Positions 1 through 15,386 of a stretch of DNA of 35,607 bases are shown here, piece after piece. Origin of the DNA: a virus. A program made the position numbers and the translations under genes. The notes beneath the pieces were generated by a model. That model did no database searches. It worked only from the letters and a program-made list of their open reading frames with translations, and was not told the DNA's origin. The stretch covers positions 1 through 35,607 of IMG/VR virus record IMGVR_UViG_3300035698_013372; one strand, given 5' to 3'. Each line of letters opens with the position of its first letter. Within the stretch, counting starts at the first letter, position 1.

Positions 1-127
1 AACATTAATAAATCCATCAGATAATTATATATTTAATGATACAACAAATATAAATATAAACTTTACAAGCAAATGTACTGATAATAAAGGCGTTGACTAT
101 TTAAAGATATATACAAATAAAACAGGT
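1..127. repeat. Left copy of 127-bp terminal direct repeat (circular junction)
   Basis: Bases 1-127 are identical to the last 127 bases of the window. The length equals a common assembler k-mer, and an open reading frame is continuous across the join, so the most economical reading is a circular or circularly permuted genome whose ends overlap. A genuine short terminal repeat is less likely, because the sequence lies in the middle of a coding Ig-like domain and has no special structure. Confidence 0.9.
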
Positions 128-778
128 AGTTGGGCAGCAACAGCAACTAATGACTCTCCTACTAATAATACTAATTGGGTAACAGAAATAAGTGATTGGT
201 CCGACGGTGATTACTTATGGGGAGCATGGTGTAATGATACAAGTAGCAACAGTGATGTTTCAGCTAATAGAACTATTACTGTTAATATAACAGCTATTCC
301 AGAAGAAAAATCAGGATTAGTTAATACAACTGTAGGTGCAACACCTTTTTATACTAATAATACAAACCCTAGACATATATATTTAAATAAAGATGAGAGT
401 GAATTAGTAACATTTTGGGTTAATGCATCAGGTTCAGTTAATGGAACATTTGAATTTTTTGCTTATGTAAATTTAACTTCAAATACAAGTATTAATAATA
501 TAACAAATATTTGGAATGTTACAATTATTGAAAAAATTACTAATGATACATGCACATATTCAGGATCAGGAACATGGAATATTGATTGTTCAGATGATTG
601 TGCATTAGAAGCTACAGATTTAAATGGAGAAAATGTAATAATAAATCAAAGTGAATCAACAGAAGGTACCATAACATTTAATGGAAATATTACAAATACA
701 GGAAATATAACATCAAGTGGTTTTGATAATTCAAATAAATGTATTATAACTTGCGATTCAGGAGGATGTTTTAAATGA
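1..778 (+). CDS. C-terminal part of the giant surface protein (gene continues from the right end of the window)
   Basis: This segment is open from base 1 in the frame that continues the reading frame running off the right end. The 127-base overlap is shared, and new sequence starts at base 128. It encodes the rest of the second Ig-like domain (WGAWCND and NRTITVN strands, to about base 300), then a beta-rich, N-x-S/T-dense C-terminal domain with a Cys-rich end (residues CSDDC and CIITCDSGGC). The stop TGA at 776-778 overlaps the ATG of the next gene (ATGA), which shows translational coupling and that the stop is real. Residues 1655-1870 of the joined protein come from here. Function is discussed with the main part of the gene at 30646. 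Confidence 0.85.
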   Translation, partial: TLINPSDNYIFNDTTNININFTSKCTDNKGVDYLKIYTNKTGSWAATATNDSPTNNTNWVTEISDWSDGDYLWGAWCNDTSSNSDVSANRTITVNITAIPEEKSGLVNTTVGATPFYTNNTNPRHIYLNKDESELVTFWVNASGSVNGTFEFFAYVNLTSNTSINNITNIWNVTIIEKITNDTCTYSGSGTWNIDCSDDCALEATDLNGENVIINQSESTEGTITFNGNITNTGNITSSGFDNSNKCIITCDSGGCFK

Positions 779-1932
779 CAGAATATATACCATATCAAGA
801 ACAAAAGACAGGAGCTAACTTAACAGGAAGCTCAGGCGGTGCAAATAGAACTATTGTATTAGCAAATTTAAATGCTATATTTGCACAAATGCGAATAATT
901 ATAGATCAAGCTATATTGCAACCTACATTAGATTATACTCTAAATACAACAACAAATACTATAACTTTTGTTAATAATGTATGGAATGATCAAATAATAA
1001 TAATTGATTATTTTACAGTTGTTACAACAAGTTCTGCAACAGGAAGTGATTATTGTACTACACTTGATATAGTAAGATTTGCAGGATTAGGAGTTGTTAT
1101 AGAATTAGAAACATTAGGAACAGGTGATTCATCTGAAAGATCATTTGATGCTAATCATGGAAATGTAATTGATGGTTCATATGTTATAGAATATGGTGCA
1201 GCAGATAGTAATGATACAACTGCAATGATTGATGTTAATGATTATGCTTTAGATAAAGATTCTGGAACATTATATTTAACAGCAGCAGGTCTTGCTAAAC
1301 TAAGCACAAATAGATTATATATTAGTTATACATATTCACCTAAACAATCTGATACTGTATTAGACACATATTTAGCTAGTGCATCAAGAGAAATTGAGAA
1401 ATTAACAGCTGATACATTTTTAACTTCATCAACATCGACTGAATATTTTGATGGTTATAATTCAGGTTATCCACAAACTGATATGCCGTTTGGTACACAA
1501 ATTGAGAATCCTGCAGAATTTATGTTAAAAGGTAAAGGATTATTAACTGTAGCATCAGTTGAATTTTTAGATACAACAGGTGCAGTAGATAGTACAGTTG
1601 ATTCAGATTATATAACTTTTGATAGTTTTGGAAGAATTATATTAACTAATGCAACAATTCCAAATGGTAAACGTAATATAAAAATAACTTATACACATGG
1701 TTATACTTCAATACCAAGTTTAGTTGTTGAAGCAACTGCATTACTTGCAGGTATGATGGCGTTAGTAAATATATCAGGTGGTTCATATAAAGATATAAGC
1801 ACATATCAAATAGGACGTAAATCATTTTCAATAGGACAAATCTATATTAACATAGATAATTCTATAGGACAGATGAGAAAGAGAGTTGATGACATAATAA
1901 GGTCATTAGGCTATAAATATTGGTGTGCATAA
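775..1932 (+). CDS. Head-tail connector / adaptor protein with inserted beta domains (gp6-like)
   Basis: Predicted head-tail adaptor that would sit under the portal ring. The family signature is in the helical parts: LASASREIEKLTADTF near residues 200-215, and the C-terminal HGYTSIPSLVVEATALLAGM with a following helix, as in gp6-like connectors. Unlike typical 100-200-residue connectors it is 385 residues long. The excess is three beta-rich segments (about residues 15-85, 120-190 and 250-310) with a recurrent pattern of a Y-D/T-y-turn followed by an I-x-V/I-x-Y strand. I infer these are decorative Ig-like insertions. The ATG overlaps the stop of the giant surface gene. It is followed by two more connector/tail-completion genes, which supports the call. 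Confidence 0.65.
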   Translation: MTEYIPYQEQKTGANLTGSSGGANRTIVLANLNAIFAQMRIIIDQAILQPTLDYTLNTTTNTITFVNNVWNDQIIIIDYFTVVTTSSATGSDYCTTLDIVRFAGLGVVIELETLGTGDSSERSFDANHGNVIDGSYVIEYGAADSNDTTAMIDVNDYALDKDSGTLYLTAAGLAKLSTNRLYISYTYSPKQSDTVLDTYLASASREIEKLTADTFLTSSTSTEYFDGYNSGYPQTDMPFGTQIENPAEFMLKGKGLLTVASVEFLDTTGAVDSTVDSDYITFDSFGRIILTNATIPNGKRNIKITYTHGYTSIPSLVVEATALLAGMMALVNISGGSYKDISTYQIGRKSFSIGQIYINIDNSIGQMRKRVDDIIRSLGYKYWCA

Positions 1933-2001
1933 GTATTCCGTATAATTAATCATTAGTTAAACAACGAATATAGTGTATTTAACAATGATTTAATATGATA
2001 C

Positions 2002-2009
2002 TTTATATA
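2002..2009 (+). promoter_or_regulatory. TATA-like box upstream of the head-closure gene
   Basis: TTTATATA lies in an 84-bp gap after the connector gene. It is only about 20 bases from the GTG at 2026, shorter than the 28-base spacing of the portal-gene promoter, so promoter function is less certain than for the three copies of the longer motif. An imperfect hairpin (about 1952-1987: CATTAGTTAA pairing with TTAACAATG) lies just upstream. Confidence 0.35.
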
Positions 2010-2025
2010 CAAACGGGTGATAAAT

Positions 2026-2415
2026 GTGGTAACAGAAAGATCAACAGGAGATAAAGCAGATTCATTTAGAATAAGTTGGACAGACTATTTAACAAACTTT
2101 GCTACTACTGTAACTCTCAGAAAAAGAACAGAAACATTAGATAGTAATAAAAGAGTAACTGCTGTAGCAACAGCTACTTCAACTATTAATGCAGATATAC
2201 AATGGATATCTAAAATTAATATAAAACATTTTAATTTAGGTGAGATAGAAGTTGGTGATGGTGTATTATTTGTTGAATATAATGCAGATGTAGATTTAGA
2301 AGATGAACTTGATTATAATAGTAAAAGATGGCGTATTATAGAACAAGAAGAAGGAGAGCAAGTAGGTGGTAAAGTTGTTTATAAAGCTTATCTAATAAGG
2401 AAAAATCCACAATGA
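2026..2415 (+). CDS. Putative head-closure / stopper protein
   Basis: A 129-residue beta-rich protein in the position of an SPP1 gp16-like head-closure (stopper) protein, between the connector and the gp10-like tail-completion gene. The C-terminal half has the style of that family: VGDGVLFVEYNADVDLEDELDYNSKRWRIIEQE, i.e. a value declared in a loop and a closing W-x-I-I strand. I chose GTG at 2026 because GGTGAT at 2015-2020 makes a good Shine-Dalgarno at normal spacing. A GTG at 2017 in the same frame would bury that site. The gene ends in an ATGA-type overlap with the next start. Family placement is by position and weak motif, so the exact role is inferred. Confidence 0.55.
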   Translation: MVTERSTGDKADSFRISWTDYLTNFATTVTLRKRTETLDSNKRVTAVATATSTINADIQWISKINIKHFNLGEIEVGDGVLFVEYNADVDLEDELDYNSKRWRIIEQEEGEQVGGKVVYKAYLIRKNPQ

Positions 2416-2858
2416 TGAAATTTAAAGTTGAAATTAAAGGGTTTGAAAAAGGTAAACGTAAAACTATTGATAAAGGTAAAAGAGTTCTTCAAAAAAGTAT
2501 GTTTAAAATGGAAGAACTTGCTGTTGATAATGCACCTTTTGATAAAGGATTTTTAAGAGCAAATATAAGAACAACACCTAAAACACTTAGTAATAAATAT
2601 GTATTAACATCAGGAGCACCATATTCAACTGATTTAGAATATGGTAATACTCCACGTGATGTTAAGTTTGTAGATATAGAGAAATGGGTTGAACGTAAAG
2701 GAATTGCAACAGGACAAGGTGTATATGCTTTTACTAATTATGTTGTTAAAAAAATAAGAAGTGAAGGAGTAAATGCTCATCCATTTATGCGTCCAGCACG
2801 TGATCAAGTAAATGCATTTTGGACACCTATATTTATGAAAGAAGAATTTGGTCAATAA
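2412..2858 (+). CDS. HK97 gp10-like tail-completion protein
   Basis: Tail-completion / head-tail joining protein of 148 residues. Family hallmarks are visible: a basic N-terminal helix, APFDKGFLRANIRT (the conserved 'a-P-v-d-T-G-x-L-r-x-s-i' region) near residue 40, APYSTDLEYGN near residue 75, and HPFMRPARDQ near residue 123. Members help join the tail to the head and normally lie just before the tail terminator, as here. The start overlaps the previous stop (ATGA). A second ATG three bases downstream is equally usable. A promoter-like motif follows the stop, so the tail genes may be transcribed separately. Confidence 0.8.
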   Translation: MMKFKVEIKGFEKGKRKTIDKGKRVLQKSMFKMEELAVDNAPFDKGFLRANIRTTPKTLSNKYVLTSGAPYSTDLEYGNTPRDVKFVDIEKWVERKGIATGQGVYAFTNYVVKKIRSEGVNAHPFMRPARDQVNAFWTPIFMKEEFGQ

Positions 2859-2860
2859 TT

Positions 2861-2878
2861 AAGTAGTATTTATATATA
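2861..2878 (+). promoter_or_regulatory. Virus promoter motif, copy 1 (before the tail genes)
   Basis: The 18 bases AAGTAGTATTTATATATA are repeated exactly before the portal gene, with 16 of the 18 before the protease gene. The TTTATATA core is a textbook archaeal TATA box. By the spacing at the portal gene, transcription would begin near 2901, leaving a leader of about 40 bases that contains two copies of CCAAGAGGA, the second serving as ribosome-binding site for the gene at 2943. Confidence 0.75.
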
Positions 2879-2942
2879 AGATATAATATTAAATATATAT
2901 ATTCCAAGAGGAATCAATCTTTTAAACATCCAAGAGGATAAC

Positions 2943-3647
2943 ATGACTGACTATATAATAGATCCAGAGGACATCGTAGTTGACTTCCTAAGAGTTCATC
3001 TAACTGATCCTAGAGCAAGAGCTGAAGCAAGTGGAACTAATAATTTTACAGCAACAGCAGCACAAACAGATTTTACTATTACTCCAACAAGTGGTTCTGT
3101 TTCAACAATAAAGACAGTTACTGTTAATGCAGCAAGTCAAACTAAATGGAAAGATTATTATTGGGATTATCAAAATTCAAAAATAACATTTTTTACGGCT
3201 TCAACATTAAATGATGCAGTTGTTGTTACTTTTAAATATGGAACAAGTAATTGGATATATCCTGATAAACCAAATGATACACTTACGGCAACATCATACC
3301 CACGTATATCTATATTTAGTGTTTCAGGAAGTGGAAAAAGATTAGGACAATATGAAGCACCTGTCGAAGGGAGCGTAGTTTTACAAGTTGATATATGGGC
3401 AAAAGAAAATTATATTGCGACTATAAATAGTAGAAAATATTCAAATAATTATTTAGGAAGATATTTAGGAAATCAAATAACTAAAGCATTTGAAGATAAT
3501 GAAAATGATTTATTTCCATTACTATATAATTATAATCCAATTAGCATTCCAAGAGAAGGACCATATAGTGAAGATCAACAAGCATATCATACTATATTAG
3601 AAATTAATTTAAAAGGATTAAAAATAGGAAGAATCGAGGTAACTTAA
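2943..3647 (+). CDS. Tail terminator-like protein with N-terminal beta insertion
   Basis: A 234-residue protein in the tail-terminator slot, between the gp10-like protein and the tail tube. Such proteins cap the growing tail tube and bind the connector. The C-terminal part fits: PRISIFSVSGSGKRLGQYEA, EGSVVLQVDIWAK, a helix ending in LGNQITKAFE, and a final YHTILEINLKG strand. Residues about 30-100 form an extra beta-sandwich-like segment (FTATAAQTDFTITPTSG through VVVTFKYGTSNW), resembling the insertions in the connector protein. The Shine-Dalgarno AAGAGGA lies seven bases before the ATG. The family assignment rests on position plus fold-like pattern. Confidence 0.6.
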   Translation: MTDYIIDPEDIVVDFLRVHLTDPRARAEASGTNNFTATAAQTDFTITPTSGSVSTIKTVTVNAASQTKWKDYYWDYQNSKITFFTASTLNDAVVVTFKYGTSNWIYPDKPNDTLTATSYPRISIFSVSGSGKRLGQYEAPVEGSVVLQVDIWAKENYIATINSRKYSNNYLGRYLGNQITKAFEDNENDLFPLLYNYNPISIPREGPYSEDQQAYHTILEINLKGLKIGRIEVT

Positions 3648-3649
3648 AA

Positions 3650-4615
3650 ATGGTAACATCAGAAGGATTATTAGGACAAAGAGAAAGATTTTTATTAATG
3701 GAAGAAGATACATACGGAGAAGCAATATCCTTAACACCTAGTGGAATTATTCCAGGATATGACGTTATCGTAAATCCAACATTTACACAAGGGTTTCAAG
3801 AACTTAAAAATAATGGAACAGATGTAAGAACAATAAATAAAAGAATTGCTGGACCGTTAGGATTAACATATAGTTTATCATGCTATCCTACAACATTTCA
3901 AATGCTTAAATATATGTTTGATATAGATTCAGAAACTGGAGCAGATCCATATACTCATACACTTTCAGTAGGTAATACACTTAAATCATTTACAGGTGAA
4001 TGGTCAATGCGACATTCAACAGATCCAATGGTAATAAAAACTACTGGTAATGTAATGACAGAATATAAATTAAATTTTAATAAAACTACAGGAGAAGGTA
4101 ATACAGGTTTTGTTACTGCAACGTCAAAATATGTTGCACAAAATTATACTACACCTAGTCTTGAAGCAGGAGATTTTACTATAACTGGAGATCCATTTCA
4201 ATATAGACATTCAACAATGACACTTGCTTCATCTGATGTAGTTGAAATTAATAGTGGTGAAATATTATTTACACAAGGTATTACACCAAACGATTCAAGA
4301 TATGCAAATACATCACTTGCAAGAACAATAGGAACACCAATTGCAACAGTATTTAGAATATCAGGAAGAATAAATGTGAATCTTTTAAGTACAACACTTC
4401 CTGCATTATGGGAAACTGCAGCTGCTATAACTGGAACAAATACGTTAGTATTTCAACAATCTGCAAGTAATAAAATAACATTTACATTATCTGGAGTATA
4501 TTGTGAACCAGTTCCTTTAACAGGAACAAACATAGAAGGTGTTAATACAGGAGATTTTATATATACTGCAACTGGAGTAGTAGTTGTTGCAATAGATAGT
4601 TTAGAAAACTGGTAA
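3650..4615 (+). CDS. Major tail tube protein
   Basis: Predicted tail tube subunit of 321 residues. The N-terminus (RERFLLMEEDTYGEA) followed by repeated beta strands matches the tail-tube style of long-tailed archaeal and bacterial viruses. So does its position two bases after the terminator gene and directly before the tail assembly chaperone with its frameshift. Segments such as GPLGLTYSLSCYPTTFQMLKYMF, the YTHTLSVGN turn and a second tube-like half (residues about 175-320) suggest a duplicated tube domain. GAGGTAAC precedes the ATG as ribosome-binding site, overlapping the upstream gene's end. Confidence 0.7.
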   Translation: MVTSEGLLGQRERFLLMEEDTYGEAISLTPSGIIPGYDVIVNPTFTQGFQELKNNGTDVRTINKRIAGPLGLTYSLSCYPTTFQMLKYMFDIDSETGADPYTHTLSVGNTLKSFTGEWSMRHSTDPMVIKTTGNVMTEYKLNFNKTTGEGNTGFVTATSKYVAQNYTTPSLEAGDFTITGDPFQYRHSTMTLASSDVVEINSGEILFTQGITPNDSRYANTSLARTIGTPIATVFRISGRINVNLLSTTLPALWETAAAITGTNTLVFQQSASNKITFTLSGVYCEPVPLTGTNIEGVNTGDFIYTATGVVVVAIDSLENW

Positions 4616-4626
4616 GAGGTAATAAA

Positions 4627-5013
4627 ATGGATAAAAATAAATTTTTTATGACTGATGAATGTAAAAACATAGATATTAAAGGACAAGTTTTTAAATATAA
4701 ATTAGTTAATACAGGTAATGAACTTGATTGGGTCGACGATTACATGGAAGATGTTTCACAAACAAATGATAAAGGTGAAAAAGTTATTATCAAAAAACAA
4801 AACCTTGGAAAATTATCTATATGTAAATTAAGAAATATTATGGAACTTCCATTTACTAAAGAAGAATTAGAACAAATAAGTGGAGTTAAAAAAGATTTTA
4901 AAGATTATACAAATGAAGAAAAAGATTTATTATTTAGAAATCTTGATCCAACAATATTTAATGAATTGGTAACAAAAATTGATAAAATAAATCATCATAA
5001 AAAAAAAGATTAA
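4627..5013 (+). CDS. Tail assembly chaperone, short (G-like) form
   Basis: A 128-residue acidic/helical protein between the tail tube and tape measure, the standard place for the tail assembly chaperone that coats the tape measure before tube polymerisation. It ends in HHKKKD just after a run of nine A bases, and an open frame in -1 follows (next feature). Motifs such as KLSICKLRNIMELPFTKEELEQISG fit a small helical chaperone. The Shine-Dalgarno AAGAGGT lies six bases before the ATG. It has no obvious similarity that I recognise beyond context and frameshift, but the arrangement is characteristic. Confidence 0.75.
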   Translation: MDKNKFFMTDECKNIDIKGQVFKYKLVNTGNELDWVDDYMEDVSQTNDKGEKVIIKKQNLGKLSICKLRNIMELPFTKEELEQISGVKKDFKDYTNEEKDLLFRNLDPTIFNELVTKIDKINHHKKKD

Positions 5014-5252
5014 TTCAATATATACATGATGTTTCAGATAATCAAAAAGTATATTTAAATAAAACCGATTTATTATATTTAGAAATGGTTAAAGCATGGA
5101 ATAATGGTATTAGTACACATGAATTTAGAAAATGTTTAACTTCAGATATTAAATTTATATCTGATTATAATAAAGCAATATTCAAAAAACAAGAAAAATT
5201 GCAGCATGAACAGAAAGTGCTTGAAGCAATGCAAAATTTACCAAGAGGTTAA
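4627..5252 (+). CDS. Tail assembly chaperone, frameshifted long (GT-like) form
   Basis: A -1 slip in the A-run at 4999-5007 joins the first 127 codons to an otherwise startless open frame beginning at 5007 (reading RLIQYIHDVSDNQ) and ending TAA at 5250-5252, giving about 208 residues. The extension is well formed: it is helical, has no internal stops, contains LLYLEMVKAWNNGISTHEF, and ends four bases before the tape-measure ATG. No usable start with a Shine-Dalgarno exists for the extension alone. This is the lambda G/GT arrangement, in which the long form recruits tail tube protein to the tape measure. The slip site and open frame are seen directly; the efficiency is unknown. Confidence 0.8.
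4999..5007 (+). promoter_or_regulatory. Programmed -1 ribosomal frameshift site (nine A bases)
   Basis: The zero frame reads CAT AAA AAA AAA GAT TAA, so the slippery run ends one codon before the stop. Moving back one base after the last AAA gives AGA TTA ATT and an open frame to 5252. Re-pairing of AAA on AAA is perfect in -1. I do not see a strong stem-loop directly downstream in this AT-rich stretch. Confidence 0.75.
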
Positions 5253-5256
5253 TAAA

Positions 5257-6072
5257 ATGGCAGAAGTTGGAGAAATAACAATAACAGGAAATATTGATGA
5301 TACTGAAATTACTGCAGGTTTTGATAGAATTACTGACCAATTAAAAGAAATGGAAAATCAATTTAATCAAGTTAATCAACCTATGGCAAGAACAGCAGGG
5401 TTTGCTTCAAAATTAGGTAAATCTCTTATAGCAATTGGAACAACAGGTGTTGCTGCATTAACAGCACTTGCTACTAAATCACCAGTTCTTGCAAGTACAT
5501 TTGCAAAAATGGAAGTAGGTATGCTTAAATTATCAAATACTGTTGGTAGACTATTTAAACCTGCATTTGAAGGTATAAACGATTTAATATTAAATGTAAA
5601 TGAAGCATTATTAAATCATGGTGATGCAATATCAACTATTGCAACAACTGTAGGAACAGGATTTGAAGATATTGGAAGTATTATTACTGGACAATGGAAT
5701 GAAATAGAAAATATTATACCTAAAGGAGTAGGTGTTGCATTAGGTATTAAATTAGGAGCACCATTTGGATTACCAGGTATGATGATGGGTGCAGCACTTG
5801 GTTATATTGCAGGTGATCTTTTATCACAACCTCAAGGTCAAGAAAGATCAGAGATAGAAACTAATTTTGCAGAATTTGTAACTCCACAAGCGTTAAAAGA
5901 TACAGGTATAGCTCCTGTTGAAGGTGTTCCACTTGGTTCATTATATTTACCAGCTGTTGATTTAGCTATAAATATGTTTCATAAAGTTATAGATGTAATT
6001 GTAAATAACAATGATGAAAAAAATAATGCATTATATACTCATAATTCAAATGGTAGGGTGGTGACTGTATAA
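5257..6072 (+). CDS. Short tape measure protein
   Basis: A 271-residue protein directly after the G/GT chaperone, hence the predicted tape measure that sets tail length. It has an N-terminal amphipathic helical region with Gln/Asn-rich heptads (DRITDQLKEMENQFNQVNQ), hydrophobic helices (LIAIGTTGVAALTALA and LPGMMMGAALGYIAGDLL) and a polar tail, as in tape measures. It is very short: at about 1.5 angstrom per residue the tail would be near 40 nm. ATG at 5257 is chosen because CAAGAGGTT sits seven bases upstream; an in-frame ATG at 5206 lies inside the chaperone extension and lacks such a site. The stop overlaps the next start (TAATG). Confidence 0.65.
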   Translation: MAEVGEITITGNIDDTEITAGFDRITDQLKEMENQFNQVNQPMARTAGFASKLGKSLIAIGTTGVAALTALATKSPVLASTFAKMEVGMLKLSNTVGRLFKPAFEGINDLILNVNEALLNHGDAISTIATTVGTGFEDIGSIITGQWNEIENIIPKGVGVALGIKLGAPFGLPGMMMGAALGYIAGDLLSQPQGQERSEIETNFAEFVTPQALKDTGIAPVEGVPLGSLYLPAVDLAINMFHKVIDVIVNNNDEKNNALYTHNSNGRVVTV

Positions 6073-7073
6073 TGGCATATTTAAAATTACAAGATTATGA
6101 TGGTATATCAACTGTTTCACGTGCAAGAACGTCAAATGTATCAACTATTATAGTAGATTCAGCACATGGTTTAATAACTGGTGATACTGTTACTATTTCA
6201 GGACTTAGTGGATCAGATTATAATGATGATGATGTTTCTGCCACAGTAACAAATTCAGTTACATTTACTTATGCAAATACCGGTGATAATGAAGGAACTA
6301 CAGGTGATACAGGAGGATTAATATTTGCAAATTATACATTTCCATATAATCCAAACTCAATTGAATTTGGAACTAATAAGTTTGTAGACCAAAGAAATTT
6401 ACCATATTCATTTACATTTTTAGGATTTTCTTCATCTATTAAAAGTAATATAAATATAGGAATTAATGGACATTTTGATGGTAGCACAAAAAATAGTGCT
6501 TATAGAAGTCTTGTAAAAAAGATTAATTCACCAATTATGTTACGTTTATACTTTGAAAATTCACATGATAAATTTTATATTTGTACTGGTATGACTGTTC
6601 AAAAAGTTCCTACAGGAACAAGACCTTTACATACTGATTATGTCAGTAATTTATTTAGTCCGTTTGGTATATTATTTGATGATACACAACAAAGTGGTTT
6701 GTTAGATGGTAGTGATTCCAATGATGGTGATATAACAACACCAATTGAAAAAATTACTGGAAGTGTATCAAGTGGTTCTGCTGTTACTATAAAAGATAAA
6801 AATAATAATGGTTTTACGTTTACACCTGATGCAACAGGAACAATGACATATTCACTTATCAAAGTTCTTAGTGCAGACAATACAACATATTTAGTTAATT
6901 ATATGTATGTAGATATTGATGGAACAGAAAAAATAATACAAAATGCAAGTACAAGTGGTGATTTAATGTTAAAATTAGAACCTGGTGAAAGTTTAAATGA
7001 TATATTTACAGGTGGAACTATTACTAATATTACACCAACTTTTTATTTTAGAAACGGATGGGCGAGTGATTAA
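6072..7073 (+). CDS. Distal tail-like protein with inserted beta domains
   Basis: A 333-residue protein after the tape measure, the usual place for a distal tail protein linking tube and tip. The N-terminal core (MAYLKLQDYDG) is interrupted by a recognisable beta module (residues about 15-78) with the pattern AHGLITGDTVTISGL ... VTFTYANTGD ... GDTGG, which occurs widely as an inserted domain in virus tail proteins. The core then resumes: FPYNPNSIEFGTNKFVDQRNL. A second beta-rich segment fills about residues 215-330. The TAATG overlap with the tape measure implies coupled translation. The distal-tail role is inferred from order and from the PYNPNSIEF-type strand. Confidence 0.5.
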   Translation: MAYLKLQDYDGISTVSRARTSNVSTIIVDSAHGLITGDTVTISGLSGSDYNDDDVSATVTNSVTFTYANTGDNEGTTGDTGGLIFANYTFPYNPNSIEFGTNKFVDQRNLPYSFTFLGFSSSIKSNINIGINGHFDGSTKNSAYRSLVKKINSPIMLRLYFENSHDKFYICTGMTVQKVPTGTRPLHTDYVSNLFSPFGILFDDTQQSGLLDGSDSNDGDITTPIEKITGSVSSGSAVTIKDKNNNGFTFTPDATGTMTYSLIKVLSADNTTYLVNYMYVDIDGTEKIIQNASTSGDLMLKLEPGESLNDIFTGGTITNITPTFYFRNGWASD

Positions 7074-9125
7074 ATGACAAATGGTTATGTAATTAATATA
7101 GGAAATGGAAGTGTTAAACAATGGGTTTCATTTTCATATGAACATACTCTTAATGCCATGTCAAACTGTCAAATAGCGTTAGACGGTGTTACAAGTGCGT
7201 ATTCAACTGAATTTGATGTTGATAGTGAGATATACATCTATAAAAATGGAACGCTTAAATTTAGAGGTATTATTATAACTAAACAAGATTTAACAGCAGG
7301 TGGAGCAGTTCTTGCAGCAAATGGTATTGAATTAGAATTAGCTGATAATAAAGCACCTATGGTTGGTAGTTTAACAATAAGAAGTTGGTCATCAACTGCA
7401 GATCATACAATATTATCAACACTTGTTACAGCTGTATCTGGCTGGACTATTGATACAAGTAATTCAACTTCTTCAACAGTTAATTCTTTTAGAGTATCAT
7501 CTTCCGAAAGTGTTTGGAATAGTGTTATAAAATTAATAGAACATACTGGTAAAGATATAAGAATAGATCAAACAAATAAAAAAGTTTATTTATATGATGA
7601 ACTTACAAGAGATAGTAAATTTTCATTTATTGAAGGTAAAAATGCAAACGGTATATCTAGAACAAAAATGCGTTCAAAAGCAGGAAAAGTAATTGTTTAT
7701 GGTAAAGGTGATGGTGATAATCAAATTGTTGGTTCAAGTGGTGCTTCAACTCCTGTTTATACAATTATTGATAGAAATATAATAACAAATGATCAAGCAG
7801 ATGTAAGAGCATTAGTTGAATATAATAAACTTAATCCAGAAAATAAACGATATAGATTATCTCCTATATATGCTATTGATGCTATTCGTAATGGTGATGC
7901 TGGTAATATATCTAATAATTCAGCAGGTATTGATGAAGAAGTTGATATAGTTAGAATAATAACAACAGTTAATAATAATGGTGTTGAAAAATTAAATCTT
8001 GAAGTAACAAATCCTACTTATAGATTAGCAAGTAAAAATTCTGCTGAAGGAAATACATTTAATCAAGAGGCTTATAATCAAAGTCAATCATCAATGCAAG
8101 GTAATACTAATGAAGCAAAATGGTTACTTGGTAATAATACAAAAAATGGAGTTCCTTTACGAATACCATTTTATATTGGTTCATCATTTTTAGATGAGAT
8201 AGATGCTTTAAGAATAGATTCAATGACTTTAGATTATGATTTAGATCCATATAGAAAAGGTGCTGGAGATGTTAGTGAAACTCAAAAAGATCCATCATTA
8301 GAAGGTGATGCAGCATCACACGGACACGATCCGTTTGAAACTAGCACTGGACATGATCATACAAATCCAGCAACTGTAAGTGCAGCATCAGCTGTAGGTG
8401 GTTCAGAAGGAAGTGATAATTGGTCAGAAAATGTTGGAAATACATGGGATCTTGTTGCAACTGAAGGATTTTCAGGAACGTTTGGTGTTATTTGGGCAGA
8501 AATAAAAATTGAAGCTTCTGAATGGAGTGGGACTGATACTATAGGTATTAAAGTTGAAAATGATGGAACTCCTATTATACAAGAAATAGGATTAGTATTT
8601 GATACAACTAAAGATCCAATATATAGAGTTTATACTATTCCAATATTTGGAAGTGCATCAGATGATATTACTTTATATTTATATAGTATAGGAGAATTTA
8701 ATTATGCAGGTTATTTAAAATTATATGGTGATAACCAATACCATACACATAATATTGGAACTTATGATTCAAATGATAAATTAACAACATTAGATGATGA
8801 TAATGATAGTCCATCATTAACAGGTGGTAATGCAGCATTGCATAAACATGATGTTTCTATAGGTGATGATATTACTGATGAAGCAAGTGTTAATTCATCA
8901 GAGATTGATATATATTTAGATTTTTGGAATACAGGAACAACATCATGGGATAATAAACATAGTGTATTAAATACTGGAACAACATTAGATGAAGATGTTG
9001 ATATAACAAACAGTGATACATATCCTGATGCAACAGGATGGTGGAGAGTAAGAATTGATCCTAGCAGTTCAACACCTGATTATGTTCAAGGAATAGTAAA
9101 AATAAAGCATAGTTTAGACAATTAA
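7074..9125 (+). CDS. Tail-tip hub / receptor-binding protein with His clusters
   Basis: A 683-residue protein. Residues 1-330 look like a tail hub (gp27/gpD-like): IYKNGTLKFRGIIITKQDL, WNSVIKLIEHTGKDIRIDQTNKKVYLYDE and SKAGKVIVYGKGDG are typical of hub and tail-associated proteins. The C-terminal half is fibre-like: HGHDPF and GHDHT near residue 420, YHTHN near 560, LHKHDV near 587, and then a jelly-roll-like tip. HxH motifs in trimeric tail fibres are known to coordinate metal along the axis (T4 gp37), so a metal-stabilised trimeric needle is plausible. The ATG directly follows the upstream stop. The hub call is from context and motif style. Confidence 0.55.
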   Translation: MTNGYVINIGNGSVKQWVSFSYEHTLNAMSNCQIALDGVTSAYSTEFDVDSEIYIYKNGTLKFRGIIITKQDLTAGGAVLAANGIELELADNKAPMVGSLTIRSWSSTADHTILSTLVTAVSGWTIDTSNSTSSTVNSFRVSSSESVWNSVIKLIEHTGKDIRIDQTNKKVYLYDELTRDSKFSFIEGKNANGISRTKMRSKAGKVIVYGKGDGDNQIVGSSGASTPVYTIIDRNIITNDQADVRALVEYNKLNPENKRYRLSPIYAIDAIRNGDAGNISNNSAGIDEEVDIVRIITTVNNNGVEKLNLEVTNPTYRLASKNSAEGNTFNQEAYNQSQSSMQGNTNEAKWLLGNNTKNGVPLRIPFYIGSSFLDEIDALRIDSMTLDYDLDPYRKGAGDVSETQKDPSLEGDAASHGHDPFETSTGHDHTNPATVSAASAVGGSEGSDNWSENVGNTWDLVATEGFSGTFGVIWAEIKIEASEWSGTDTIGIKVENDGTPIIQEIGLVFDTTKDPIYRVYTIPIFGSASDDITLYLYSIGEFNYAGYLKLYGDNQYHTHNIGTYDSNDKLTTLDDDNDSPSLTGGNAALHKHDVSIGDDITDEASVNSSEIDIYLDFWNTGTTSWDNKHSVLNTGTTLDEDVDITNSDTYPDATGWWRVRIDPSSSTPDYVQGIVKIKHSLDN

Positions 9126-9129
9126 AAAA

Positions 9130-9732
9130 ATGAAATATTCAAAAAAATTAATGGAAAAATTTGGAAAAACCGTTCATACATCAAAATTAGATTTTGGATT
9201 TATCAAAAAACTTATAAACTGGATAATAAATTCAAAATATAGAAAAAGTGTTCGGTTGACAACATGGTTAAAAAATCAAATTTATGTTAATCATTTTGAA
9301 CTTGAAGAATTATCAAAAAATTTAAAAGGTTTAACAAATGATATAACAATATTAAATATACTTAAATGGGTTCATTCAAATATAACTTATAAATCAGATA
9401 CATCTGTTTGGGATATGACTGAACATTGGAATGAAGCTGTTACAACATATAATACAAAACAAGGTGATTGTGAAGATGGTGCTATATTAATATATATATT
9501 AGCACGTTTAGCTGGTATATCACCATATCAAATAACAATAGCATGTGGTGATGTTAGAGGTGGCGGACATGCTTATATAATGTATAGTGCAGATTATGAT
9601 GGCATTGATAGATATATTGATTGGTGTTATTATTATGATTCAACAAGAATATCAAATAGAAAAATTAAAGATGTTCATTATATCAAAGAATGGTTTAGAT
9701 TTAATGAAAATAGTAGTTATAAAATGAGGTAA
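9130..9732 (+). CDS. Transglutaminase-like cysteine peptidase
   Basis: A 200-residue protein of the transglutaminase-like fold. The Cys-His-Asp triad is visible in order: GDCEDGAILIY (Cys near residue 114), GGGHAYIMY (His near 143) and YYYDSTRI (Asp near 166). A helical N-terminus precedes it and no signal peptide is seen. Virus proteins of this fold cleave cell-wall or surface-layer cross-links; the pseudomurein endopeptidases of methanogen viruses use the same triad. It sits at the end of the tail module, next to a holin-like gene, so it could be either a tail-borne entry enzyme or the lysis enzyme. No clear Shine-Dalgarno precedes the ATG, so translation is probably coupled to the tail-tip gene five bases upstream. 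Confidence 0.75.
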   Translation: MKYSKKLMEKFGKTVHTSKLDFGFIKKLINWIINSKYRKSVRLTTWLKNQIYVNHFELEELSKNLKGLTNDITILNILKWVHSNITYKSDTSVWDMTEHWNEAVTTYNTKQGDCEDGAILIYILARLAGISPYQITIACGDVRGGGHAYIMYSADYDGIDRYIDWCYYYDSTRISNRKIKDVHYIKEWFRFNENSSYKMR

Positions 9733-9737
9733 TAAAA

Positions 9738-10010
9738 ATGAGAGAATATGAAATTATTAGTATAACAATTGAAAATTGTATTCGTGTAGAAATTGAATTT
9801 TTAGATGATAGAAGTAGACAACAATTTGTTTATCCATTAAATAAAGGATGGGAAATAGAAAATACAATTGATAATGAACCTAAATTCATAAAAAATATTA
9901 AACAGAGAGTAGAAAATGATGAATTTAGTAAAAACATTATGTCAAAAGCAAAAATTACAGCATTAAAAAATAAATTTCAAGGAAAAAAATTTACAAAAAA
10001 TAAGAGGTAA
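9738..10010 (+). CDS. Small basic protein, unknown
   Basis: I do not recognise this 90-residue protein. The N-terminal half is beta-like (YEIISITIENCIRVEIEFLDDRSRQQFVYPL), followed by a helical lysine-rich tail (ITALKNKFQGKKFTKNKR). It has a good Shine-Dalgarno (ATGAGGTAAT) that overlaps the end of the transglutaminase-like gene, and it is followed eight bases later by the holin-like gene. The placement suggests a role in the late tail/lysis cassette, but no motif supports a particular function. Confidence 0.65.
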   Translation: MREYEIISITIENCIRVEIEFLDDRSRQQFVYPLNKGWEIENTIDNEPKFIKNIKQRVENDEFSKNIMSKAKITALKNKFQGKKFTKNKR

Positions 10011-10018
10011 AAACAAAA

Positions 10019-10297
10019 ATGGATATAACAATAGAAATAATGAAAAAATTAGGTTTATTTGTTGGTATTCCTGTAGCAAGATCAGTTATAGGTTGGGCAC
10101 AAGCAGCATTAAAAGATAGTAAAATAACAAAGTTTGAATTTAAGAAATTAATTGAAACTGTTGTTCGTGTTGGTACAATGTCAGTAATGTTATACTTTGG
10201 TGCAAATGAGATAGGAATTGATATATCAGTATTAGGCGCTACAGCTGGAACCTTTTTAGCAGATGTAATATTCAAAGGAATAAAGCATTTAAAATAA
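10019..10297 (+). CDS. Holin-like small membrane protein
   Basis: A 92-residue protein with two or three hydrophobic segments: LGLFVGIPVARSVIGWAQAAL (residues about 11-31), VRVGTMSVMLYFGANEIG (about 49-66) and ISVLGATAGTFLADVIF (about 69-85). A short charged linker (KDSKITKFEFKK) lies between the first and second, and the C-terminus is basic (KGIKHLK). Size, topology and place as the last gene of the rightward unit, next to a cell-wall-type peptidase, fit a holin. GAGGTAAAAAC before the ATG is the ribosome-binding site. No family motif was recognised, so the call is by topology and context. Confidence 0.55.
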   Translation: MDITIEIMKKLGLFVGIPVARSVIGWAQAALKDSKITKFEFKKLIETVVRVGTMSVMLYFGANEIGIDISVLGATAGTFLADVIFKGIKHLK

Positions 10298-10330
10298 ATT
10301 TTTTTTTATTTAAAATATATTTTTTTCTGC
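10298..10330 (+). terminator. T-tract terminator at the end of the rightward unit
   Basis: Directly after the last rightward stop the strand reads runs of nine T, then seven T (10299-10307 and 10320-10326), the T-tract type used by archaeal RNA polymerase. The two genome-long transcription units converge here, and the tiny leftward gene at 10310-10402 ends in the same block. Confidence 0.55.
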
Positions 10331-10402
10331 AAATATTGTTCTTAAATAAAGAATTATTATAAAAAACATAAATAATAATCCCATGATTGTTAAATTATCC
10401 AT
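10310..10402 (-). CDS. Tiny single-pass membrane peptide
   Basis: A 30-residue frame, MDNLTIMGLLFMFFIIILYL followed by RTIFAEKNIF. Its ATG overlaps the stop of the upstream gene by eight bases (ATGGATAA). It is nearly all one hydrophobic helix with a basic residue after the membrane segment, like small virus holin or toxin-type peptides. The Shine-Dalgarno is weak (GGAAAA), so expression would depend on coupling. Low-complexity AT-rich sequence can give such frames by chance; the overlap and sound topology are the only support. Confidence 0.4.
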   Translation of the reverse strand: MDNLTIMGLLFMFFIIILYLRTIFAEKNIF

Positions 10403-10673
10403 TTTGTTTTCCAAATGTGTTTTGTGTTATTGTTTCAGTTACATTTAAAACAATGGTTTTATTTGAAATCTCACTTTTAATAAATTCAAAATTATAAGTT
10501 GGTATATATTCACCCTCAGATAATTCTCTAAAATATTCACACTGCACAAGATATTTATAACACCCATTATACTTTTCTTGTTCTATTTTTAAAGGAATTA
10601 CTTTAATAACTGCATACCAAAAACTTTCTAAAGCTTCTTTTGATATTTCAATATATCCTATTTTTGTATTCAT
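10395..10673 (-). CDS. Small unknown early protein
   Basis: This 92-residue soluble protein is not recognised. It is a mix of beta and helix: IGYIEISKEALESFWYAVIKV, then a Cys-containing central stretch (GCYKYLVQCEYFRELSEGEY) and a terminal strand (TIVLNVTETITQ). GAAGGTGAAAT supplies the Shine-Dalgarno. It is one of the last genes of the leftward unit, downstream of the lipoprotein. Early-unit small proteins in this position often act on host processes, but nothing in the sequence shows which. Confidence 0.65.
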   Translation of the reverse strand: MNTKIGYIEISKEALESFWYAVIKVIPLKIEQEKYNGCYKYLVQCEYFRELSEGEYIPTYNFEFIKSEISNKTIVLNVTETITQNTFGKQNG

Positions 10674-10714
10674 TTTTATTTCACCTTCTTTTTTATATTA
10701 AAAATAAAAAAAAA

Positions 10715-10939
10715 TTAATTTGGTATTATACCACAAACTCCGTCGCCATGTTCATCTGCATATATACCGTATTTTGTTCCGTTTGGACTAACCCATTCAA
10801 CTATATAATTAATATTGATTGCGTTGTTTTCAGTTTCATTTATCACTTCTGTTCCATTAGAAACTCCAACAGGTCCTACACATCCATTAAGAATTAGTAT
10901 GCTCATCATAACTAATCCATACATTAATTTTTTATTCAT
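10715..10939 (-). CDS. Small virus-encoded lipoprotein
   Basis: A 74-residue protein with a textbook lipoprotein signal: basic N-terminus (MNKK), hydrophobic stretch to residue 17 and the lipobox L-N-G-C with Cys20 as the modified residue. The mature part is about 55 residues, with sequons NGT and NET and a C-terminal beta hairpin (YIVEWVSPNGTKYGIYADEHGDGVCG). It would be anchored on the outside of the host membrane. The ribosome-binding site GGAGGT is embedded in the end of the upstream zinc-knuckle gene. In tailed viruses, early-expressed small lipoproteins commonly block superinfection; that role is inferred here from location and timing only. Confidence 0.8.
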   Translation of the reverse strand: MNKKLMYGLVMMSILILNGCVGPVGVSNGTEVINETENNAININYIVEWVSPNGTKYGIYADEHGDGVCGIIPN

Positions 10940-10940
10940 T

Positions 10941-11090
10941 TTATTTTACCTCCGTTATATTATTTTTTTTTCTATTTAATCTTTTTTTAATAATTGATGC
11001 TATTTTATGCTTACAACTACTACGAACTTTACATCTATAACACATAGATAATTTATCAAACTCCTTTCCAAAGCACTTATTTTTTATCAT
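10941..11090 (-). CDS. 49-residue zinc-knuckle-like protein
   Basis: A small frame encoding a protein with four cysteines spaced as C6, C17-x-x-C20 and C26 (NKCFGKEFDKLSMCYRCKVR then SSCKHK), followed by a basic helix. This is a plausible zinc-binding knuckle. Its 3' end contains the GGAGGT site of the downstream lipoprotein gene, and that stop lies one base before the lipoprotein ATG, so the two are coupled. No Shine-Dalgarno precedes its own ATG. Instead a TATA-like sequence (GTATATAAT on this strand, near 11110-11118) sits at the spacing expected for a leaderless transcript. The function is probably nucleic-acid or protein binding. Confidence 0.7.
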   Translation of the reverse strand: MIKNKCFGKEFDKLSMCYRCKVRSSCKHKIASIIKKRLNRKKNNITEVK

Positions 11091-11095
11091 TTTTT

Positions 11096-11185
11096 AGCTG
11101 TTTTTTATTATATACACGTGTTTATACGTTTTTTTATTTATCATTTAAATTAAGTGTGTTTCCGTAAGTGTAACATTAAAATAAA
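11096..11185. repeat. Left copy of 90-bp direct repeat, with leftward promoter
   Basis: This intergenic block recurs at 15632-15720. The last 43 bases (11143-11185) are identical and the remainder is about 80% identical. It brackets, with its partner, the leftward genes from 11186 to 15353. On the minus strand this copy contains a TATA-like GTATATAAT about 25 bases before the ATG of the 49-residue protein. The shared core includes GTTTCCGTAAGTGTAACA. Confidence 0.85.
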
Positions 11186-11926
11186 TTAATGTTTTATCTC
11201 TTGTTCAATGCGTATTTCTTTTGGTTTATTGATATTACGTTTTATATCATTTATTTTATCTGTCTCTTCTTTAGTTGGTTGTTTAATATTACCTTCTTCT
11301 TGTCTATGCAAACCAATATTTGTTCTTGTTTGAACTTGATCAAATATACTAAAATAGTTCACATCATTTATCATTTTAGAATTATATATTAAATGATTAA
11401 CATCCTTCCCTTCAAATTCTTTTTGCATTTCTTTTGCTAAATTAAACATTAATATATTAAGAAATTCTTTATATGCTTGATCCATTAAAACAACAGTAAG
11501 CATCCATTCTTTTATTGATTTCAACATTTTAACTGCTCTATTTACATTAAATTTCCGTGTGATAAGAGTTTTTGATTTATCATTTAATGTTCCTGTATAT
11601 AAATAATATTTCATCCAATCACGTAATGCTTTATTATATGCTACATCAAAACGTTTAACCATATAATTAACTTTACCTTTTGGTATTTTTTTAACTTTCA
11701 TATGTCCAAAAAATTTATCAAGCAAAGCAAGTGCAGGAACAAATATTCTATATTTAAAAATATAATGAACATTATAAAATGTATCAGCATATTTTTTAAC
11801 ATTTTTTATACCATAGATATTATGTTCAATCGTAGTATATCTTTTTTTTAATTCTTTCAAGTTTTTTACTGTAGGATGATTTTTACTTGAATTACATATC
11901 ATTTTTATTATCTTCCACATTTTCAT
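11186..11926 (-). CDS. Unknown 246-residue helical early protein
   Basis: Not recognised. The protein is basic and almost wholly helical, with aromatic-rich segments (YADTFYNVHYIFKYRIFVPALALLDKFF near residues 46-73 and LRDWMKYYLY near 101). A central helical block (RAVKMLKSIKEWMLTVVLMDQAYKEFLNIL) is followed by a polar, charged C-terminal tail rich in Glu, Lys and Asn from about residue 205. There are no clear membrane spans or catalytic motifs. The ATG overlaps the stop of the upstream 56-residue gene (TAATG), with GAGGTG as ribosome-binding site. It ends directly at the 90-bp repeat. DNA-binding or scaffolding roles are possible but unsupported. Confidence 0.7.
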   Translation of the reverse strand: MKMWKIIKMICNSSKNHPTVKNLKELKKRYTTIEHNIYGIKNVKKYADTFYNVHYIFKYRIFVPALALLDKFFGHMKVKKIPKGKVNYMVKRFDVAYNKALRDWMKYYLYTGTLNDKSKTLITRKFNVNRAVKMLKSIKEWMLTVVLMDQAYKEFLNILMFNLAKEMQKEFEGKDVNHLIYNSKMINDVNYFSIFDQVQTRTNIGLHRQEEGNIKQPTKEETDKINDIKRNINKPKEIRIEQEIKH

Positions 11927-12096
11927 TATTGTTCACCTCTACTAAACATATCATCAACTGTGCATACACAAAATTTATATTCATTTTTATCATCAGTAAC
12001 AAAACGAATACCATATTGTGTTTGTTTATATAATATACCATCATTCTCAATATATCCATATTTAAATATATTTTTACCATTTATATTATATTTCAT
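11926..12096 (-). CDS. 56-residue unknown early protein
   Basis: The supported frame begins ATG at 12094-12096 after a strong GGAGGAAAT site and encodes MKYNINGKNIFKYGYIENDG, ending FSRGEQ. It is beta-rich and contains a CVC pair. Its stop overlaps the next start as TAATG, and the GAGGTG for that gene lies in its last codons, which fixes this frame over an overlapping one. The 'DDGILYK'-like phrase (NDGILYKQTQYGIRFV) resembles the start of the Sm/SH3-like protein at 14782-14997, so the two could be distantly related small beta barrels. Confidence 0.7.
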   Translation of the reverse strand: MKYNINGKNIFKYGYIENDGILYKQTQYGIRFVTDDKNEYKFCVCTVDDMFSRGEQ

Positions 12097-12445
12097 TTTT
12101 TATTTCCTCCTCTTTATTATTTTCATGCCATTTTTTAACTTCACTTTCATATACTTTAAATATATCAGGAGCCATTCTAATAAGTGGATTATATAATCCA
12201 TCATAATATTTCTCTAATATATATACCATCCTCATATTTATCTGAAATATTTTAGAAGGAGATATTTTATATTTTTTATAATCAGATTTTGTAATATCTC
12301 CTTCTAAAATATGTACTTGATAATGCTGCATTAAATCATACAAATGCATAAAGCCTGTTAAACAGCCTTTAAATATATCACATTTATATGGCCAAGTCAT
12401 TTCTTTATATACACCATTTTTTTTACTTGTATATTTTAATTTCAT
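12086..12445 (-). CDS. Unknown 119-residue early protein
   Basis: Not recognised. Mostly helical, with two Cys in the first third (YKCDIFKGCLTGFMHLYDLMQ), a His-containing stretch (HYQVHILEGD), a helical core (SPSKIFQINMRMVYILEKYYDGLYNPL) and a highly charged end (KKWHENNKEEEIKNEI). GAGGTGT upstream of the ATG is a good ribosome-binding site. Its 3' end overlaps the next gene by 11 bases and carries that gene's GGAGGAAAT site, so the set is a tight operon. Confidence 0.7.
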   Translation of the reverse strand: MKLKYTSKKNGVYKEMTWPYKCDIFKGCLTGFMHLYDLMQHYQVHILEGDITKSDYKKYKISPSKIFQINMRMVYILEKYYDGLYNPLIRMAPDIFKVYESEVKKWHENNKEEEIKNEI

Positions 12446-12463
12446 TTTTTAACACCTCTTTTT

Positions 12464-12691
12464 TTACCAATATATATATTTTTCAGTTCCGTTCATTGTA
12501 TAATTTTTTTGGTCATCTTCTGAATTGTTTTCAACTGGTTGTTGTAATTCTAAATGTTCAACTGCTTTCCATAAAGTTGAATATTTATTTCTATTGTTAG
12601 TAACCAATCTTTCACCAATTTCTTTACACTTTTTATAAAGTGTATTATTTCTTATAAAATACCCATATTGTGTTATTATTTCTTGTTTCAT
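12464..12691 (-). CDS. Unknown 75-residue early protein
   Basis: Not recognised. Helical N-terminal two-thirds (ITQYGYFIRNNTLYKKCKEIGERL, then YSTLWKAVEHLEL) with a polar acidic tail (ENNSEDDQKNYTMNG). GAGGTAAAT precedes the ATG. The mix of a small helix-turn-helix-sized core and acidic tail could suit a small regulator or a DNA-mimic-type inhibitor, but I have no motif for either and leave it as hypothetical. Confidence 0.6.
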   Translation of the reverse strand: MKQEIITQYGYFIRNNTLYKKCKEIGERLVTNNRNKYSTLWKAVEHLELQQPVENNSEDDQKNYTMNGTEKYIYW

Positions 12692-12712
12692 TTTAATTTA
12701 CCTCGTTTTATT

Positions 12713-12967
12713 TTATTTTTGTTCGTAAAGATCACTAATAATATTTTCCTTAGGAGCCCATATTTTCCACCATTTTCTTTGGTATCCTGAACAAGTATGT
12801 TCTTTATCTTTGTATTTACATTTTGTCAAATGATGATTCCAATAAGGTGAATCACCATATTTCTTAACTGATTTTGTAGGGTCACAATAAAAATTTGTTA
12901 CCTTTGTTGTTCCTATCATATCTTTTTCCTTATAAAACCAATAATGTTTACAGTTTTTACATTTCAT
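12713..12967 (-). CDS. Cys/His-rich zinc-binding early protein
   Basis: An 84-residue protein beginning MKCKNCKHYWFY with a C-x-x-C-x-H knuckle, then FYCDPTKSV near residue 28, NHHLTKCKY near residue 47 and HTCSGYQRKWWKIW near residue 58. Five Cys and several His are placed like a small treble-clef or zinc-ribbon domain. The GGAGGAAAT ribosome-binding site is strong. It is the first gene after the helicase, behind an 81-base gap with a TATA-like box, so it may lead its own transcript. It probably binds DNA, RNA or a host protein. Confidence 0.7.
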   Translation of the reverse strand: MKCKNCKHYWFYKEKDMIGTTKVTNFYCDPTKSVKKYGDSPYWNHHLTKCKYKDKEHTCSGYQRKWWKIWAPKENIISDLYEQK

Positions 12968-13014
12968 TTTATATTTCCTCCTTTTTTATTTTAATATACA
13001 TATAAAATCACTAC

Positions 13015-13030
13015 CCCTTTATATATATAT
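13015..13030 (-). promoter_or_regulatory. Possible internal leftward promoter
   Basis: On the minus strand the gap after the helicase gene reads AAATATATATATAAAGG, a TATA-like box. The expected start point would be near 12990, just before the GGAGG site of the zinc-binding gene. In such AT-rich sequence the motif alone is weak evidence. Confidence 0.35.
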
Positions 13031-13048
13031 TTATTTCTGTTTTTGTTT

Positions 13049-14746: not shown

Positions 14747-14781
14747 TTTATTTCACACCTCATTTTATAATTTATTTTATT

Positions 14782-14997
14782 TTATCTTGCATTATCAACA
14801 CGCTTTGAACGATTAATATATGATATTACTCGTTTTCCTATCATTAATATATCACCTGTTACCATTGTTTTAAATTTATACATAAATTCATCATTACTAA
14901 TAATATATCCATGTATAACTTTAACATCATTTCCATCTTTAAAAACAACCTTATATAAAATTCCATCATCAACTTCCATGTTTATTTTATTTTCCAT
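14782..14997 (-). CDS. Small Sm/SH3-like beta-barrel protein
   Basis: A 71-residue beta-rich protein: DDGILYKVVFKDGNDVKVIHGY, then IISNDEFMYKF, TGDILMIGKRVISYINRSKR. The pattern of a strand, G turn, strand, D/E-F strand, G turn and I-x-K-x-x-I-x-x-I-x-R end is reminiscent of Sm/Hfq-like or SH3-like barrels. An ATG two codons upstream (15001-15003) lies too close to GGAGGT; the second ATG has about eight bases of spacing and is preferred. It is second gene of the early unit, just before the helicase, so nucleic-acid binding is a fair guess. Confidence 0.65.
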   Translation of the reverse strand: MENKINMEVDDGILYKVVFKDGNDVKVIHGYIISNDEFMYKFKTMVTGDILMIGKRVISYINRSKRVDNAR

Positions 14998-15020
14998 TTT
15001 CATTTACCTCCTATTTAATC

Positions 15021-15353
15021 CTATATTGTTTCTGCTTGTAATTGAGATATATTATCTAATAATCTTAAAATCATTGCATTAAACTTTTCTCCTCTAATAT
15101 TAAGTTGCATTAATTTAATATATGTATTACTTTCTATATTTAAAGTTACTTCTTCTTTATTTTCTTCAGAAGTAATATCTAACATAGTTGTATCACAAGC
15201 AAATATAAGACCTTTATATATTTGATAATACTTTTTTTCTTCTAACTTCCGTAAGTAATCAAATAAATATAGAAATAATGCGTTAAAATCATCTTCAATG
15301 TTTATATATTCACATAATTTATTATATGTAATAGTTGATATTTTTATATTCAT
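15021..15353 (-). CDS. Duplicated VapB-like / ribbon-helix-helix-type regulator, first early gene
   Basis: A 110-residue protein made of two related halves. Residues 1-39 (INIKISTITYNKL-type strand and turn, then DDFNALFLYLFDYLRKLEE) align with residues 69-107 (VTLNIESNTYIKLMQLNIRG then EKFNAMILRLLDNISQLQAE). The unit 'v-x-l-n-I-x-x-x-T-Y-x-K-L ... g-e-x-F-n-x-x-I-x-R-L-L' is the pattern of archaeal VapB-type antitoxins/RHH proteins, here in tandem so one chain may form a pseudo-dimer. GAGGTGT lies before the ATG. As the first gene behind the leftward promoter in the 37-bp inverted repeat it is well placed to regulate both divergent promoters. No toxin gene is adjacent. Confidence 0.65.
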   Translation of the reverse strand: MNIKISTITYNKLCEYINIEDDFNALFLYLFDYLRKLEEKKYYQIYKGLIFACDTTMLDITSEENKEEVTLNIESNTYIKLMQLNIRGEKFNAMILRLLDNISQLQAETI

Positions 15354-15386
15354 ATTTACACCTCTTTTTATTTTATTTTATAAATC

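Follow-up and report, generated by a model that had tools for sequence, protein, structure and literature searches.

A probable programmed −1 frameshift at a run of nine adenines in the predicted tail chaperone genes of a tailed virus associated with Nanoarchaeota

The stretch of DNA analysed here (the window) is a whole virus record of 35,607 bases. An exact 127-base repeat stands at its two ends (1-127 and 35481-35607), which fits a complete circular assembly, and the contig is probably circular; a third copy (83%) lies at 32748-32874. The window carries genes of a head-tailed virus (Table 1), with tail genes in the order tail completion, tube, G, T and tape measure, and the same order, with overlapping frames between the tube and tape measure genes, is found in the related loci L008 and L015. 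The names tube and tape measure are based on gene order and weak matches. The tube product has no named family match in PHROG or Pfam, and its homologues at the same place are 69-73% identical in L008 and L009 and 32% identical in L015. The tape-measure-like protein has weak matches to PHROG tape measures (best named one 8.9e-4) and a homologue in L008 (52%), and genes of similar length occupy the same place in L015 and L031 (273-285 aa in L008, L015 and L031). Matches of terL by tblastn were mainly to Bacteroidota and Arthrobacter phages, with a best identity of 45%, while searches against phages found no match to positions 1-25000 of the window (megablast) or to the tube, major capsid and tail proteins (tblastn).

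Table 1. Positions of the tail chaperone locus and of other virion genes in the window
Feature	Position	Strand	Basis
Neck protein	2412-2858		PHROG
Probable major tail tube protein gene	3650..4615	+	Position directly upstream of G; name inferred from gene order
G, predicted tail assembly chaperone, 128 aa, frame 0	4627..5013	+	Conserved in relatives; AlphaFold model match
TAA stop in the −1 frame, closing T upstream	4998..5000	+	Direct reading, script
A9 run (exactly nine A), putative slip site	4999..5007	+	Direct reading
In-phase heptamer A_AAA_AAA, X_XXY_YYZ type	5001..5007	+	
T, −1 frame extension, 83 codons and stop (TAA 5250-5252)	5001..5252	+	
TAA stop of frame 0, end of G	5011..5013	+	
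Tape-measure-like gene, short (271 aa)	5257..6072	+	Weak PHROG matches; homologues in relatives
terL	16998-18410		tblastn to annotated terminases
Portal joined to Mu F-like domain	21230-23500		Pfam
SU10-like capsid protein	24469-25524		Pfam

In frame 0, G ends as CAT AAA AAA AAA GAT TAA, with the stop one codon past the A run, as had been described in an earlier reading of the letters by themselves (the sequence-only reading). The same reading had described a −1 frame that runs up to the tape measure, and this too holds, since T ends at 5252 and a gap of 4 nt separates it from the tape-measure-like ATG at 5257. Its description of T as startless stands in part: the TAA at 4998-5000 closes the frame on the upstream side, but an ATG lies inside T at 5085-5087. 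Because the −1 frame is closed by this TAA and frame 0 by the TAA at 5011-5013, a switch from G to T is possible only within the 13 bases 5001-5013, an interval that is essentially the A run.

No significant sequence match was found between G and any named chaperone family in PHROGs or Pfam. Comparison of the AlphaFold model of G (pLDDT 89.7) with viral models by Foldseek returned three tail assembly chaperones and one tape measure chaperone as the top four matches (E 6.6e-4 to 1.4e-3; best TM 0.62). Against the PDB, Z was at least 2 for five chains among 993 aligned, in three entries, and G was aligned with YqbN (3klu; Z 7.8, rmsd 3.5, 99 aligned), with the HK97 tail assembly chaperone gp13 (2ob9; Z 5.7, rmsd 4.4, 89 aligned) and with 5ir0 (Z 4.9, rmsd 4.8, 90 aligned); YqbN is from a phage-like element of Bacillus. 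The model thus predicts a tail assembly chaperone fold for G, with middling scores and a match at the level of the fold only. The model of T is all-helical (pLDDT 87.6), and a fold search with it gave no match at E 0.001 or better.

Relatives of the locus were drawn from viral and genome collections. A tape-measure query found the first (L008) and alignments of two or three rows then found others; single-sequence scans with tube, G and terL found no relatives. G and T were located by profile searches in every record long enough to hold both, repeat loci of the same contig were removed (L009 = L012; L010 = L013; L011, L014 and L016 = L008; L026 = L015; L032 = L031; L033 = L038), and L028, which ends before G, was left out, giving 19 distinct records including the window. 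L030, whose G frame is broken, was omitted from the alignment of G and retained in the counts; at 5971-6335 of that record G is divided over two frames, through error or decay. Statistics on 17 lineages omit L013, which is close to L012, and L027, which is close to L015.

T lies in the −1 frame of G in all 19 records, and G and T share one frame in none. An in-phase heptamer of the form X_XXY_YYZ is present within the short G/T overlap in every record, while an out-of-phase heptamer is absent in five of the 19. The sequence-only reading had proposed conservation of the frames in relatives as a check and an A8 or A10 run giving a single frame as the case that would speak against it; the two frames are kept throughout, with T always at −1, and relatives with A10 retain both. 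These results also bear on the idea that the run is in truth A8 or A10, with G and T in a single frame that has been disrupted by assembly or sequencing error or by decay of the gene. Homopolymers are error-prone and the record is metagenome-derived, but an identical −1 layout recurs in 19 of 19 records, six of which have no long homopolymer, making this explanation extremely improbable. Three loci outside the 19 (L039, L040 and L041) belong to a different and more distant provirus type from the same archaeal phylum. In their provirus-like regions (L039 11407-11911, L041 12409-12923 and L040 11210-11724) a T-like frame follows G in −1 without a canonical heptamer, and a CCT CAG AAG stretch just ahead of the stop is common to all three.

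The slip sites themselves are varied. Runs of A9 or A10 occur in 13 of the 19 records (11 of 17 lineages): A9 is followed by G in the window and in L030, which also has A_AAA_AAG, and by C in L015, L023, L027, L031 and L038, and A10 is present in L008, L012, L013, L017, L019 and L024. The other six records, each a separate lineage, have short sites, namely A_AAA_AAA within A7 in L018, A_AAA_AAC, with an A run of six, in L020, L021, L022 and L025, and C_CCT_TTA in L029. A tree of the tail-completion and tube proteins places the short sites at three separate positions, with L029 next to L023, L018 next to L017 and the window clade, and the four A_AAA_AAC loci next to L024; a few nodes of this tree have support below 0.6, including the one that joins L017 to the window clade. 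An A9 run alone is not rare, as there are seven runs of at least A9 in the window genome, which has 28% GC. Runs of A9 or longer at the G/T overlap were observed in 11 of 17 lineages against 0.005 expected, and L008 has an A10 run, yet AAA makes up only 52% of its lysine codons. In-phase heptamers occur in 2-14% of comparable coding stretches of the same loci; the background product for their presence in 17 of 17 lineages is 10^-22 when lineages are treated as independent, an overstatement since the lineages are related.

Sequence comparisons also suggest that T is under purifying selection. In six pairs of the window, L008, L012 and L015, for which synonymous sites are near saturation, pN/pS was 0.31-0.59 between the internal ATG and the end of T, compared with 0.44-0.94 over the 25 preceding codons, so that this latter stretch has weaker support than the remainder. 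Conservation of T nevertheless extends back to the slip site and includes the stretch before the internal ATG, and a K-[KR]-L-[IV] motif stands directly past the slip site in the −1 frame in most of 17 aligned T sequences. It is conceivable that T is a separate small protein, made without fusion from the ATG at 5085 or from a non-ATG start, and L008 and L012 do have an in-frame ATG at the corresponding position of the alignment. Two records (L020 and L022), however, have no ATG, GTG or TTG ahead of a conserved GIS motif, which together with the conservation next to the slip site makes separate initiation of T unlikely as a general rule. By eye there is no ribosome-binding site ahead of 5085, and separate translation would leave the heptamer unexplained. 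We therefore regard an independent T as very unlikely, and the evidence points to T being reached by a shift of frame from G.

The sequence anatomy, the two conserved frames with their constant −1 direction, the in-phase heptamers and the chaperone-like predicted fold of G support the proposal of the sequence-only reading that the locus is a tail chaperone pair with a −1 frameshift of the G/GT type, and the gene order tube, G, T, tape measure supports its comparison with the strategy of lambda. We place the probability at about 0.8 that G and GT are the tail assembly chaperone pair of a head-tailed virus, produced by lambda-type programmed −1 frameshifting that is chiefly ribosomal. From these comparisons we infer that a shift occurs and is mainly the work of ribosomes; its rate and the binding partners of G and GT are likewise deduced. 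Most ribosomes would read G and terminate at 5011-5013, while a minority would slip one base back on A_AAA_AAA (5001-5007), read AGA TTA ATT and go on through T to 5252, yielding a GT fusion about 210 aa long. On the lambda model, G would coat the tape-measure protein and GT would recruit the tube protein through its T part.

A shift made in the RNA is the principal alternative, in which the archaeal RNA polymerase, slipping on A9, inserts one extra A or leaves out two, and some of the mRNAs encode GT in a single frame. The sequence-only reading had allowed for such polymerase slippage. Its attractions are that A9-A10, a length at which bacterial polymerases slip according to PMC5009743 and PMC3711429, is present in 13 of the 19 records, that L008 keeps A10 despite its lysine codon usage and that the window has no stem. 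A homopolymer of at least about eight residues, which is expected for transcriptional slippage, is thus found in the window and the other long-run records but is absent in six, where the A6C, A7 and C_CCT_TTA sites are too short for homopolymer slippage as described. Homopolymers retained without regard to tandem-slip phase would be a further mark of transcriptional slippage, whereas all six short sites are in phase. The direction, moreover, is always −1, and according to PMC3711429 a direction that is not conserved marks transcriptional slippage. Slippage at a second in-frame A9, in the portal gene (22718-22726), would also cost portal protein. Ribosomes fit better than RNA polymerase because the long A run has been replaced at three tree positions by A_AAA_AAC, A_AAA_AAA within A7 or C_CCT_TTA; the short sites, their correct tandem-slip phase at each position and the constant −1 direction favour ribosomes as the common mechanism. 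Frame change by the polymerase is accordingly unlikely as the main mechanism; polymerase slippage is possible as an addition in the A9-A10 lineages and cannot explain the relatives with short sites.

The portal A9 run is followed by GAT and lies in the linker that joins the portal domain to the Mu F-like one, and a slip in either direction there runs into a stop within seven codons. Runs of A10 are present in the portal gene region of L055 and L058. The portal run was considered as a second programmed site, which is not favoured by the comparison: most of the 11 portal loci examined have no run of at least nine A. In the window and several relatives a single frame encodes the portal and Mu F-like domains, which are in separate frames in one record (L051 and L059).

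The remark in the sequence-only reading that no obvious stem follows the slip site was borne out in the window, where the folding z-score over 100 nt was +0.58 and the best stem had a p value of 0.655. Pseudoknot-free folding of the window gave no stable structure of the kind that, in classical −1 PRF, starts about 5-9 nt past the slip site; no SD-like element was seen upstream and an Rfam search of the window found nothing. It is plausible, as had been suggested, that the homopolymer alone suffices for the shift. Median folding z-scores were lower in short-site than in long-run lineages at 60-100 nt and not at 40 nt; two-sided rank tests in eight settings gave p values between 0.010 and 0.59, three of them under 0.05, the stem-only measure gave p 0.12, and two control regions further downstream gave p 0.22 and 0.26. 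These tests are exploratory, because the lineages share ancestry and the comparison was set up once the data had been seen, and a tendency of the short-site relatives toward more downstream structure is to be taken as a lead. The long-run lineages L017 and L038 also fold well. A GCTGAT/ATCAGC pairing that starts 7 nt past A_AAA_AAC is common to L020, L021, L022 and L025, and the folding table of these four sequences holds no pair with changes on both sides. A9-A10 runs and downstream RNA structure may be interchangeable for setting the G:GT ratio, such that lineages with A9-A10 need no stem and those with short sites have one, a proposal that we consider doubtful. In A9-A10 sites without a stem, slippage by ribosome and polymerase perhaps adds up.

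The arrangement resembles lambda gpG/gpGT and HK97-type systems in its place between the tube and tape measure genes, in the −1 direction and in T as a C-terminal extension, and the predicted fold of G resembles HK97 gp13 (2OB9). It differs in that G has no detected sequence similarity to a named chaperone family and in that the tape measure is only 271 aa. The lambda slip site is G_GGA_AAG, in contrast to the A9 run of the window. The window group also shares with haloarchaeal tailed viruses (HVTV-1, HCTV-1, -2 and -5; Hardycor1) an archaeal association and −1 G-T sites. Published reports describe −1 G-T frameshifting for haloviruses, with A_AAA_AAC used by HCTV-2 (PMC5009743) and G_GGA_AAT by Hardycor1 (PMC7911831), and give HF1-like viruses a likely +1 shift (PMC7230728). 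The HCTV-2 heptamer is that of L020, L021, L022 and L025. The haloarchaeal viruses have haloarchaea as hosts, whereas the window group is tied to Nanoarchaeota bins and has mostly A9-A10. Outside viruses, A_AAA_AAT in fucA1 of Saccharolobus solfataricus was shown to cause a −1 shift of about 10% when translated in vitro in an archaeal system, and the review PMC8211752 names it as the one reported archaeal −1 case besides the viral ones, indicating that archaeal ribosomes can use A-rich tandem-slip sites. The window is similar in having an A-rich tandem-slip site; fucA1 differs as a cellular gene with a shorter run, a putative stem-loop and rare codons. Transcriptional slippage in bacteria, in IS elements and type III secretion genes, involves A9-A10 homopolymers of the same length but differs in that direction and phase are fixed in the window group, in which relatives keep the shift without the homopolymer. 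Two Woesearchaeales proviruses have been reported (PMC11705971), and the word frameshift is absent from the part of that text available. No account of G/GT frameshifting in Nanoarchaeota viruses was found in the open-access literature; the strategy is known, and what is added is a virus group for which that literature yielded no account, together with a useful spread of slip sites.

Evidence on the host comes from the relatives. L031 is one of the contigs of a MAG whose title is Nanoarchaeota archaeon, and the tail-completion profile matched six of 371 genomes of the Nanoarchaeota phylum, namely G001 (L031 itself), G024 (L038, close), G350 (a weak match) and, with more distant provirus-like regions, G104 (421 kb contig), G096 (103 kb) and G040 (27.6 kb). 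The search covered the 371 genomes of that phylum and a pattern-limited genome scan. Two relatives thus sit in Nanoarchaeota genome bins, which supports the archaeal association made by the sequence-only reading; since stray viral contigs can end up in genome bins, a DPANN host is likely but not proven. Comparison of window positions 1-18000 with the 371 genomes at the DNA level gave matches in 152 genomes (E up to 1e-3), mostly short and not taken as spacer evidence. The end of an adhesin-like frame at 1-778 (matches 307-534) has about 70-80% identical DNA in many genomes of the phylum, with some of the matches to 307-534 in contigs of more than 100 kb, and host chromosomes probably carry this surface domain too.

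Further features of these genomes were observed. A SAM-dependent methyltransferase domain (Pfam Methyltransf_25, E 2e-7) at 34303-34626 lies within the very large adhesin-like frame from 30646, an unusual location for an enzyme domain. Two adjoining small genes at 25539-26109 are copies about 77% identical, and a 110-nt repeat (79% identical; 11079-11188 and 15614-15723) stands on both sides of a minus-strand gene block. The run of tail genes in L031 is broken up by a minus-strand block at 2033-3709, whose genes by eye are a helix-turn-helix regulator, a methyltransferase-like gene and membrane proteins, and an HNH-like endonuclease frame (by eye) lies among the connector genes of L008 (2005-2757).

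Few cases of programmed frameshifting have been described in archaea. An ordinary annotation would overlook T, and none of the sequence libraries tried recognises G. The short tape-measure-like protein would predict a very short tail. The series of A6C, A7, A9, A10 and C_CCT_TTA sites in these loci is natural material for experiments on the behaviour of archaeal ribosomes and polymerases at A runs. Finally, the relatives of this probable DPANN virus extend the G/GT rule to another group of archaeal viruses.
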